DNA of 57,949 nt from Mesoaciditoga sp. (GTDB taxonomy: Bacteria > Thermotogota > Thermotogae > Mesoaciditogales > Mesoaciditogaceae). The translations under genes and the position numbers were made by a program. Each line of letters begins with the position of its first letter. Positions within the stretch are counted from its first letter, which is position 1. Of the stretch, positions 53,596-57,949 are shown piece after piece. A model generated the notes under the pieces. It saw only the letters and a list, made by a program, of their open reading frames with translations. It was not told where the DNA came from and ran no database searches. The stretch spans positions 1-57,949 of the forward strand of contig WFYR01000061.1 of assembly GCA_015489955.1 (NCBI GenBank). Reading direction: 5' to 3'.

Positions 53596-53604
53596 ATTAT
53601 ACCA
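53596..53604 (-). promoter_or_regulatory. predicted extended -10 promoter element for the recJ-atp-marR run
   Basis: On the minus strand TGG precedes TATAAT (53601-53596), giving an extended -10. Transcription would start near 53589, about 34 bases before the chosen recJ start. No clear -35 box is seen 16-18 bases upstream. This is the only obvious promoter in front of the 24-gene run. Confidence 0.5.
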
Positions 53605-53646
53605 CGTCAAAGGCGAAGTTCATGGAAGGGGACCGCGCAGTTGAAG

Positions 53647-54861
53647 TCAAGGTTTTTCCACTTTTCCCATGAAAAGTATGAGATCACTCGTAGCACTTAT
53701 TTTATCAACTATGAAGAAGATGAATGGATGATCTGCCTTGAAAACAGGAATAACGGGTGGTTTGACGTTGGGTGCACAGGTAAGGGTCATAATAACACTT
53801 GTTACAGCAGCGGCTTCCGTTCCTTTTTCGTTTACGTCTACAAACGCTTTGTGAAGCACATCAGAGATCACTAGATCTTTTGCGCCATCTATACCTGAAA
53901 AGTCAGCGTTGTCGAAGGCGTTCTTCATTCCGAGAGATTTAAGAACAGAGTTGAGCGAGTACCCATCTCTTAGCTTGAATTTTGGAAAGAATACCTTCAC
54001 GGTTTGTTCTTTCATTTCGGAGCACCACTTCTTAAAGTTAGACGCACTTAATGAATTCTCAAGATTCTGTATGCCGTCCTTGTCTTTTGGAAGTAAAACG
54101 ATCATCGATAGTTTTCCACTTCCATAGGGAAGCCTCAAAGCCTGCAGAAGATCATTTTGCATGTATGAAAATTTTGATTTTTGGTACATCATTTCCACTT
54201 TCGTTGTGTGCCCGCTATCCACAAAGAAATCAGCCTTTTTCGTATTGGAAGCTTTAAATGCCACTTTCCACTTTCCGTTGAAATATATGGCATTTGTAAG
54301 TACAAGTCTCGTTAAGCCTGGAAGCCTATTTATGATATCTTCAATTTTTCCTTTTGTTTTTTCCCTCACCCAGTCGTTTATCATTTTTTTCGCTTCCAGG
54401 GGCTTTGCAAAATCGACTTTGTAAAGTTCTCCATTGTAGTATTTATCTATGATAGAAACAAAGCTTGGTAAAAGTTTAAAACCTTTTTGAACCCATAAAG
54501 CGTTGGCTACGTTAAGAGTGGAAGAGTTGGTGGCGGTTAAATTCATCAAATCAACGGTTTTTGAAAAAGCAAGGTTAAATTTATCATTTGATAGTCTTAT
54601 GTGAAGGGTTTTTGTCATCTGCGTTTTTGTTTCACCATTAGCGCCAGCGTAAACCATAGATAGGGCGTCAAAAATACTAAATGGTGAAAAAAAAGAATTT
54701 CCATTTCTTTTCAATTTGGAGTACAAGTCAAACGCAAATTCGTCGTTCGATTGAACAATGCTTTGCATGTCTTCATTATTTCCGAATAGAGCTGTTAAAT
54801 TCGCAAATGTCATTGTGAAAGAAAAGAACATCAGCAAAACGATCATGCCAAGCTTTTTCAT
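53647..54861 (-). CDS. exported serpin (serine protease inhibitor)
   Basis: Serpins trap proteases by a large conformational change. The protein, 404 residues from ATG 54861 (after GGAGGTG), has a signal peptide (about 1-20, KKLGMIVLLMFFSFTMTFA) and the complete serpin fold: NSFFSPFSIFDALSMVYAGANGET, LTNAIYFNGKWKVAF and ADHPFIFFIVD. The hinge EKGTEAAAVTSV is the small-residue pattern of inhibitory serpins. By counting from the P17 glutamate of alpha-1-antitrypsin, the P1-P1' bond would be Thr-Cys. The target protease is unknown, but it must act outside the cytoplasm. Confidence 0.93.
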   Translation of the reverse strand: MKKLGMIVLLMFFSFTMTFANLTALFGNNEDMQSIVQSNDEFAFDLYSKLKRNGNSFFSPFSIFDALSMVYAGANGETKTQMTKTLHIRLSNDKFNLAFSKTVDLMNLTATNSSTLNVANALWVQKGFKLLPSFVSIIDKYYNGELYKVDFAKPLEAKKMINDWVREKTKGKIEDIINRLPGLTRLVLTNAIYFNGKWKVAFKASNTKKADFFVDSGHTTKVEMMYQKSKFSYMQNDLLQALRLPYGSGKLSMIVLLPKDKDGIQNLENSLSASNFKKWCSEMKEQTVKVFFPKFKLRDGYSLNSVLKSLGMKNAFDNADFSGIDGAKDLVISDVLHKAFVDVNEKGTEAAAVTSVIMTLTCAPNVKPPVIPVFKADHPFIFFIVDKISATSDLILFMGKVEKP

Positions 54862-54902
54862 AATCCGCACCTCCGTCATTTGAACTTCTTCTCTCTAAAA
54901 TC

Positions 54903-54911
54903 ATTTTAGCA
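54903..54911 (-). promoter_or_regulatory. predicted extended -10 promoter element of the serpin gene
   Basis: On the minus strand TGC precedes TAAAAT (54908-54903). A start near 54896 leaves a leader of about 35 bases that holds the GGAGGTG site. No convincing -35 box is present. The serpin appears to be transcribed alone. Confidence 0.4.
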
Positions 54912-54969
54912 TCTTGAGAAGATTTAAAAAAATTATCTTCACTTTTAACTTGCACACATTTTTAATTTT

Positions 54970-54997
54970 TTTGGATCCTTTTCAAAAATGTTAAAAT
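54970..54997 (+). promoter_or_regulatory. predicted promoter of nagA
   Basis: TTTGGA (54970-54975) and TAAAAT (54992-54997) are 16 bases apart, with TG at 54989-54990 forming an extended -10. Transcription would begin near 55004, about 35 bases before the nagA start. It is divergent from the serpin promoter, 60 bases away. Confidence 0.45.
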
Positions 54998-55038
54998 GAA
55001 GGAAAAGCGAATGACAACGAAAGTGGTGGTGATGAGCA

Positions 55039-56145
55039 TTGGAAATAAAAAACGTGCTGGTGGTAGATCCGCTAAAGGGAGAATTTGTCGGAGATGTTTT
55101 ATGGGAAGAAGGAATCGTTAGAAAAGTCACCCCTAAGGGCGCTAGCACCTTTGATAACATACTCATGCCGGGTTTTGTAGATCCACACACTCATGGATGT
55201 TTTGGAATAGACACCATGAGCATCGACGATGAAAAATTGGAAAGGTGGGAACGCTTCCTTTACACTCAAGGAGTTACCTCTTTCATTCCCACAACCATCT
55301 CAGCCAAGAAAGAAGATATGATCAGGGTTTCAAACATGATCGAAGAGTACGTGTACAAAAAATCAAAGACCTCCGTTGTGGGAGTTCATTACGAAGGACC
55401 TTACATAAACATAAATAAAAGAGGTGCCCAAAATCCCAGCGCCATTCGTGAGGCCACTTCCAGGGAAATGGAAGAGATACTTTCACCTCATGTCAAACTT
55501 ATAACTATGGCACCCGAGTTAAAAGGATTTTACGATGTGCTTCCTCTTTTGAAAGAAAATGGAACGGTCGTTTCCATTGGCCATAGCGATGCCAATTTCG
55601 AAGAGATAAGACAGGCATTTCTGAATGGCGTGAACAGAATAACTCATTTTCCAAATGCCTTGAAAGGTTTTCATCACAGAGAATTGGGCGGAAGTGGGGC
55701 AGGACTTTACTTCGATTTTACACTTGAAATGATAGTGGATGGTATCCATCTCGATCCGAATTTTGTAAAGCTAATTTACAGGTTAAAAGGCGCCGAACGC
55801 ATCTCTTTGATAACCGATTCCATAAGTGCCGCGGCGCTTGAAGATGGAGAATACGAGCTTGGTGGGTTAAAGGTCAACGTTTTAGAGGGTAAAGCGACGC
55901 TACAAGACGGAACGTTGGCTGGAAGCACCCTTTTGTTCAGCAAAGCGGTAAAAAATTTCAAGAAATTCACAGATTGTTCTCTGAAAGAACTTGCGATGGT
56001 TTCGTCTTACAATTCGGCTATGAATTTAAACATACAAAAAATTGGTAGGATAGAAGAAGGATATCTGGCGAATTTCGTTTTGCTAGATAAAGAGCTCAAC
56101 GTCTTAGAAACCTACCTGTACGGAGAAAAAGTTTATCAGCGTTGA
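55039..56145 (+). CDS. nagA: N-acetylglucosamine-6-phosphate deacetylase
   Basis: NagA removes the acetyl group from GlcNAc-6-phosphate in amino-sugar breakdown and cell-wall recycling. The 368-residue amidohydrolase has PHTHG, the metal-binding glutamate in HYEGPYI, SIGHSDANFEE, the TH-NA block read here as THFPNALKGFHHRE, and the catalytic aspartate in LITDSISAA. The start is TTG 55039 after a GGTGGTGA sequence. nagB and a transporter are not adjacent. The 3' end overlaps the convergent HD-GYP gene by 10 bases. Confidence 0.93.
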   Translation: MEIKNVLVVDPLKGEFVGDVLWEEGIVRKVTPKGASTFDNILMPGFVDPHTHGCFGIDTMSIDDEKLERWERFLYTQGVTSFIPTTISAKKEDMIRVSNMIEEYVYKKSKTSVVGVHYEGPYININKRGAQNPSAIREATSREMEEILSPHVKLITMAPELKGFYDVLPLLKENGTVVSIGHSDANFEEIRQAFLNGVNRITHFPNALKGFHHRELGGSGAGLYFDFTLEMIVDGIHLDPNFVKLIYRLKGAERISLITDSISAAALEDGEYELGGLKVNVLEGKATLQDGTLAGSTLLFSKAVKNFKKFTDCSLKELAMVSSYNSAMNLNIQKIGRIEEGYLANFVLLDKELNVLETYLYGEKVYQR

Positions 56146-56882
56146 ATTTTAGAGCTCTCAGAACACTCGATTTCTTTCATTTTCATCTTCAAAAAAGCTT
56201 CAACTACTGCGGGATCGAATTGCTTTCCCGCGTTTTTTTCGATTTCTTTCAGCGCTATTTCTTCACTCAACGCTTTTCTGTACGGTCTATCGCTTGTCAT
56301 GGCATCAAACGTATCACAAACTGACATTATTCTCGATTCTAACGGTATTTTTTCACCCCTCAGCCCATCTGGATATCCTTTGCCATCCCATCTTTCGTGA
56401 TGGTGCTTTACTATCACGGCAATTTCTTTCAAGTTAGCTCCCTCTTCAATCAATTCCGCACCAATTACGGGATGTGTTTTTATAGCGTTGTACTCCTCAG
56501 GAGTGAGTTTCCCATTTTTATTCAGTATTTCCAAAGGAACGAAAATCTTTCCCACATCGTGAAGCAATCCGGTTTGATAGATCTTTCTTTGAGCTTCTTC
56601 ATCCATTCCCATCATCTTCGCAACTTTCATAGAACAATTTGCCACACGTTCAGAATGGCCTTTGGTGTAGACATCGTACTTTTCAAGGGCTGTGACAAAC
56701 ACCATTATAAGCTTTTTCTGAAGCTCACGCTGACTTTTTAAATATTTTCTTGAAACGTAAAAAGCCGTGGCTATCTTTGAAAAAGCGTTCAAAATTTCCA
56801 CATCATTTTGAGAAAAAGTGTATTCGCTCTCTTTCGGAATATCGATTGACATGTAACCAAGTATTTCATTTGAAAAATTCAA
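56136..56882 (-). CDS. HD-GYP phosphodiesterase part of a sensor protein (second half of a split gene)
   Basis: The first 50 residues (FSNEILGYMSIDIPKESEY, then DVEILNAFSKIATAFYV) are the second half of a GAF domain, followed by a full HD-GYP domain with LLHDVGKIFVP and HHHERWDGKGYPDG. The first half of the GAF domain lies in the upstream reading frame, so this is most likely the 3' part of one sensor gene broken by a -1 frame change near 56918-56923. The TTG at 56882, overlapping the upstream TGA, would allow separate translation. The cyclic-dinucleotide phosphodiesterase motifs are intact. Confidence 0.75.
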   Translation of the reverse strand: MNFSNEILGYMSIDIPKESEYTFSQNDVEILNAFSKIATAFYVSRKYLKSQRELQKKLIMVFVTALEKYDVYTKGHSERVANCSMKVAKMMGMDEEAQRKIYQTGLLHDVGKIFVPLEILNKNGKLTPEEYNAIKTHPVIGAELIEEGANLKEIAVIVKHHHERWDGKGYPDGLRGEKIPLESRIMSVCDTFDAMTSDRPYRKALSEEIALKEIEKNAGKQFDPAVVEAFLKMKMKEIECSESSKIQR

Positions 56883-57949
56883 CGGTGCGACAGTGATTCT
56901 TTTATGGGCTTCGTAGCTTTTTTCACCGCTTCAAATGCCTTTGAAGAGGATATTTTTTCATTCTCTTTTAGAAGATCCTTCACGATTTGAGCTTTGCTGA
57001 ATTTAACCAATTCAAAATTGATGTTTGGATTTTTCAAAATCTTCTCATCGTGTCCGCGACACGCGACTATTTTCCACTTGTTTTCGTCAAAAATCCAGAT
57101 GCTTCCGTATTTGGCAGCCGGAATCATTTCCAGAGCGTTGTCAAGCATTCTGTTGAGAAATTCATTTTCTTCTACTTTCACCATGTCGAGCTGAGACAAA
57201 GGAACTATCACGCTTTGAAATCTTTTGTTAAGCTTTTCTAATTCGGAATAGGTATGCTCCAACTCCTCGTTTATGGCCTTTATTTCTTCATTTGAAGCGG
57301 TGAGTTCTTCGATGGTTTCGTTTAATCTTTCGTTCTTTCTTTTAAGCTCGCTAGCTCCTTTTTTTACAAGTTTTCTCAAGATAATCACGTTAACGATCAG
57401 CACCACAAAAACAAGAATACCGGCTCCAAAAACGTAGAGAACCCATCTTGGAATGAACGAACTTGCGGAAGGGACATGTAAGTATTTAGAAATTGACTCG
57501 TTAAGAACTGAATTGTCGTTCTCTTTCATTTGCTTGATGTACCTATCTACAATCGGCGCTACGATCTTTGCAACATGGCTTTGTTTGGAAAAGGCCGCTT
57601 TTTCCTCAATGAGGTAGAAAATCATTGATGTGCTCTGTAGCCCGTATTTTGAAGCGTTTTCAACGCCAAAAAATCTGTTTACCACCCCGGCATCTATTTC
57701 TTTAGCTTTAATAGCTTTGAAAATATCGGAGTAGCTGTTGAATTCAACGAATTTTGATTTGACTTTTAGATGTTCTAAAAAATACTTTATTCCCAGAGGG
57801 CCTTCATAAAAAATATCCGATTTTAAAACTCCCACGCGCTTACCGTTCAAATCAAAAAAAGAATCAATGGAACTTCCTTTATGTGTGTACACCTGAGCCC
57901 AATTTGACAAAAAATATTCGTTGGTGAAATAACAAAACGACTTTCTTTC
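56879..57949 (-). CDS. sensor with periplasmic solute-binding-like domain, membrane helix, coiled coil and half GAF (partial, split gene)
   Basis: The frame is open to the right edge, so the N terminus is outside the window. The first 150 residues match a family 3 extracellular solute-binding domain used as a sensor (DLNGKRVGVLKSDIFY, then IKAKEIDAGVVNRFFG). A membrane helix (WVLYVFGAGILVFVVLIVNV), a coiled coil, and the first half of a GAF domain follow. The frame then ends abruptly at 56879, while the rest of GAF and an HD-GYP domain continue in the -1 frame. It is probably one frameshifted gene, either genuine or an assembly error in an A6 tract. Confidence 0.75.
   Translation of the reverse strand, partial: ERKSFCYFTNEYFLSNWAQVYTHKGSSIDSFFDLNGKRVGVLKSDIFYEGPLGIKYFLEHLKVKSKFVEFNSYSDIFKAIKAKEIDAGVVNRFFGVENASKYGLQSTSMIFYLIEEKAAFSKQSHVAKIVAPIVDRYIKQMKENDNSVLNESISKYLHVPSASSFIPRWVLYVFGAGILVFVVLIVNVIILRKLVKKGASELKRKNERLNETIEELTASNEEIKAINEELEHTYSELEKLNKRFQSVIVPLSQLDMVKVEENEFLNRMLDNALEMIPAAKYGSIWIFDENKWKIVACRGHDEKILKNPNINFELVKFSKAQIVKDLLKENEKISSSKAFEAVKKATKPIKESLSHR
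56918..56923 (-). other. A6 tract at the probable frameshift point
   Basis: Read on the minus strand this is six A bases in GTG AAA AAA GCT. Adding one A restores a single frame in which the GAF domain runs on as KKSYEAHKRITVAPLNFSNE into the HD-GYP frame. It could be a lost base, an assembly error, or a site of ribosomal or polymerase slippage. Confidence 0.55.

Follow-up and report, generated by a model that had tools for sequence, protein, structure and literature searches.

The last 1.8 kb of the window, by which we mean the whole 57,949-nucleotide stretch analysed here, carries two ORFs on the minus strand which, judged from their alignment with relatives, are consecutive parts of one gene. 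The gene appears to encode a membrane-anchored c-di-GMP phosphodiesterase sensor, with the order SBP_bac_3, transmembrane helix, coiled coil, GAF and HD-GYP, its enzymatic function being predicted from its domains. It lacks a single base within the GAF coding sequence, and this is very probably an ordinary one-base lesion rather than a programmed feature, whether a recent inactivating mutation or an error of sequencing or assembly. The contig that makes up the window, C61, is one of the 120 contigs of a MAG (G000) that is 88 per cent complete, and the closest named relatives of this genome are MAGs of the Mesoaciditogaceae (Thermotogota).

One sensor gene in two reading frames

The upstream ORF (56879–57949, minus strand; 356 codons) comprises the periplasmic sensor, whose N-terminus is cut off by the contig end, a transmembrane helix, a coiled coil and the first part of the GAF domain, and it terminates with the TGA at 56879–56881. 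The downstream ORF (56136–56882, minus strand; 248 codons), with a mechanical start at the TTG at 56880–56882, comprises the remainder of the GAF domain and the whole HD-GYP domain (HD_5, E 5.7e-45); the two frames lie one base apart, in a −1 step. In the sister genome G001, the one further genome of the genus compared, the orthologue is one ORF of 714 aa (L089:2090–4234), to which the upstream ORF is 82.7 per cent identical over residues 119–471 and the downstream ORF 82.3 per cent identical over residues 472–708. Two ORFs, 356 and 248 codons long, that together match a single protein from end to end at 82–83 per cent identity have not come to lie so by chance. All four family orthologues examined (G001, L005, L006 and G007) are single intact ORFs of ∼684 codons or more, namely 685 aa and 684 aa in the Mesoaciditogaceae MAGs L005 and L006 and an open frame of 712 codons in G007, and more full-length homologues are present across the class (L012 was left out of the relatives compared). 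The sequence-only reading was right to see here a single sensor/HD-GYP gene whose frame shifts by one base inside GAF, and its two ORFs, their TTG/TGA overlap and an A6 tract at 56918–56923 all stand; where it had looked to relatives for two separate genes, they carry one intact gene.

In the intact protein, Pfam places SBP_bac_3 at the N-terminus (E 8.7e-18) and HD-GYP at the C-terminus (HD_5, E 1.4e-48). The GAF domain between them is matched by GAF_2 above the curated cut-off in intact L005 (E 3.6e-8) and in L009 (E 1.3e-6) and more weakly in L006 and L007, while the intact G001 protein gives no Pfam match to GAF at E 0.01; it is by the match in L005 that the frame break of the window is judged to sit within this domain. 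Aligned to 4mcw and 5z7c, the downstream ORF has an HD domain with the HHExxDGxGYP motif, here HHERWDGKGYP. The same order of GAF then HD-GYP is found in PmGH of Persephonella marina (PDB 4mcw/4mdz/4me4; PMC4159591), with which an intact relative aligns over both domains, and the family of the window gene keeps the HD, the HHE..DG.GYP and further ligand positions. Seven of the eight PmGH metal-ligand positions are conserved in the alignment as read by eye, the position of E185 being occupied by Tyr, which under the classification of that study (PMC4159591) suggests a binuclear rather than a trinuclear metal site. Apart from this residue, the family differs from PmGH in the periplasmic SBP_bac_3 sensor placed in front, and the window copy differs in being broken inside GAF. 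The intact orthologues of G001, L005 and L006 share the domain order of the window gene, G001 with similar identity in both halves, but each is one ORF and the downstream neighbour differs in each.

The position of the TTG/TGA overlap (56879–56882, minus strand; two bases shared) corresponds to the interior of GAF in the intact relatives, and the overlap reads as a consequence of the broken frame and is unlikely to serve as a start; no Shine-Dalgarno sequence was found just upstream of the TTG. It had been proposed that the overlap might mean two coupled proteins; restart at the TTG would then yield a stand-alone HD-GYP enzyme, and the overlap itself, the constraint kept in both halves and the presence of nearly all HD-GYP metal-ligand positions in the downstream part speak for such coupling. 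However, recency or error explains the constraint equally well, every one of the four family orthologues is a single ORF, the TTG has no ribosome-binding sequence of the Shine-Dalgarno kind, and a start within GAF would leave each product holding part of the fold, so that we regard two coupled proteins as very unlikely. Much the same small chance attaches to a recent gene fission, in which a break fixed in the species, together with restart at the TTG, would free a stand-alone HD-GYP phosphodiesterase from its membrane sensor; were this true, c-di-GMP breakdown would be uncoupled from the signal.

Position of the missing base

In a DNA alignment with three relatives, the window shows a one-base gap relative to all of them, which puts the lost base between 56892 and 56891 (minus strand), 26 bases beyond the A6 tract (56918–56923, minus strand) in the direction of translation. 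Up to this gap, through the tract and past it, the differences between the window and G001 fall on the third bases of codons read in the upstream frame; the protein read in that frame across the tract and beyond is FEAVKKATKPIKESL, close to the relatives, and the conserved KATKPIKESL carries on in the upstream frame past the tract. On this alignment, the missing base lies outside the A6 tract and not within it, as had been thought. Nor would an extra A restore the protein with no loss of a conserved part, as had also been supposed, for it would exchange nine conserved residues (ATKPIKESL) for SYEAHKRIT, the reading of the downstream frame between tract and gap, which is absent from every aligned relative.

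The intact gene of G001 has an A6 of identical length, the upstream frame is conserved for 26 bases further and the sequence at the gap contains no homopolymer, and with these three observations both phase variation by tract length and transcriptional slippage at the tract, as raised in the sequence-only reading, lose their basis. Slippage of this kind is real: insertions occur in runs of A and T, and more so in longer runs (PMC5574713), and the tract does lie in the upstream frame, upstream of the break, where a change of length or a slipping polymerase might be imagined to yield both joined and truncated forms. But the joined form so made would carry the nine non-conserved residues, and six bases is shorter than the run of about nine at which selection against slippage usually becomes evident in many bacteria, a length that varies by organism (PMC1088944). 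The window moreover holds 210 runs of A or T of at least six (114 of A and 96 of T), so that this one is unremarkable. We therefore give a switch or slippage at the A6 tract hardly any credence. A programmed −1 shift of the ribosome, somewhere from 56892 to the TGA, would suit the −1 step that relates the frames, but it is scarcely credible at a break (TCA CTG TCG CAC) with no canonical slippery heptamer and seen in none of the relatives compared. Nor was a stimulatory fold found in the RNA on the 3′ side, which is less stably folded than 195 of its 200 shuffled versions (z +1.63).

Age and cause of the break

Both parts of the gene are under similarly strong purifying selection, with omega against G001 (NG86) of 0.12 in the upstream part and 0.10 in the downstream part, and it follows that the break is either very recent or technical. 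Counted at codons where both outgroups agree, amino-acid changes number five upstream and five downstream on the branch of the window, and nine and eight, respectively, on that of G001; the window branch has not gathered more changes than expected, constraint is not relaxed, and no decay beyond the single base is visible. Frame breaks confirmed by homology but found in one gene alone are, by published expectation, often sequencing errors, and the GeneTack survey counts such singletons as either that or indels of recent date (PMC3711429). The window gene resembles these singletons in its lone frame break, intact homologue and want of a conserved shift site, and differs from them in none of the features tested (PMC3711429).

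How common such breaks are in this assembly was surveyed in 763 kb of the 1.77-Mb MAG against 1.58 Mb of G001, where 442 orthologous pairs (141,090 residues) yielded three: those of the sensor gene, of a small C23 ORF and of a transporter in decay on C105. Counts of internal stops from mechanical ORFs were set aside, several matches having the look of shadow or over-extended ORFs. With three frame breaks per 442 pairs, a generally error-prone assembly is not supported. The small ORF on C23 (L244:18994–19343; G000:C23:38994–39343) is a second frame-break candidate, in which the first half is 98 per cent identical to G001 and the second half, in another frame, 82 per cent.

Slightly favoured as the cause, at about an even chance, is a mutation that inactivated the gene very recently in the lineage sampled. 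It gains a little weight from C105 of the MAG, where the two genes beside the G001 orthologue, an MCP and a transporter, are truncated and degraded, respectively; the lack of any other lesion, the constraint, the nearness of the contig end (1.06 kb from the break) and the expectation that singletons of this kind are often sequencing errors (PMC3711429) speak against it. That sequencing or assembly instead lost a base here, close to where the contig ends, has somewhat less than an even chance, against which stand a break site with no homopolymer and the scarcity of frame breaks in the rest of the sampled assembly. No second overlapping or intact copy was found in the same assembly at high identity, the nearest being a 68 per cent paralogue on C117.

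Genome context and meaning

Where compared, the window is syntenic with contig C1 of G001 from its first base to ∼53.6 kb, and synteny ends in 53600–57949; past that point its genes match G001 C17 (a serpin-like and a nagA-like gene) and then C22 (the sensor). The serpin-like protease inhibitor gene (53647–54879; 410 aa) was assigned to its family by eye from its sequence. The nagA-like gene (55039–56145, plus strand) is convergent with the sensor gene and overlaps its 3′ end by ten bases (56136–56145), and the last ∼15 residues of the window sensor are unlike those of relatives.

Contig C105 (L185, 108–1810) carries the C-terminal part of an MCP gene and a degraded transporter remnant, ∼91 per cent identical to G001 C22, in a block flanked by 43-nt inverted repeats (108–150 and 1768–1810; 95 per cent complementary). 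Its similarity to G001 far exceeds the average for the genome, and it has the look of mobile or rearranged DNA. C105 was considered as the missing upstream flank of the sensor gene, having as it does the MCP that is a neighbour in G001, but this MCP is truncated and bounded by inverted repeats, and adjacency is not established. A dispersed repeat of ∼149 bp occurs in both G000 and G001 (L185:1–150, L231:1–131, L256:2218–2366, L138:175–323 and many shorter copies), several copies lying at or close to contig ends; its ∼30-bp end, containing CTTCACGCACAACGTGAGTT, is more widespread than the full repeat. Across the sampled genome, genes shared by G000 and G001 have a median nucleotide identity of 77 per cent and a median dS of 1.6, yet a tenth are at least 94 per cent identical and, among genes whose dS could be measured, one in four falls below 0.43. 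Mosaic blocks of divergence occur inside single contigs, C105 among them, and this unevenness suggests recent exchange between lineages.

The sensor is one disrupted gene of an already known family, and ordinary as such. Beyond annotation, in which a single disrupted gene should stand in place of the two ORFs, its importance is small, apart from the caution that a homopolymer close by is no guide to the position of a frame break: aligning relatives moved the break out of the A-tract here, and the hypotheses of slippage and phase variation were removed with it. As assembled, the gene lacks one base between 56892 and 56891, a ribosome would meet the TGA no more than four codons further on, and the product would be a membrane sensor with no HD-GYP domain and hence no phosphodiesterase. 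Should the living population carry the gene intact, then, to judge from its domain families, its product would most likely be a membrane sensor in which a ligand signal passed through the coiled coil and GAF domain controls c-di-GMP hydrolysis.
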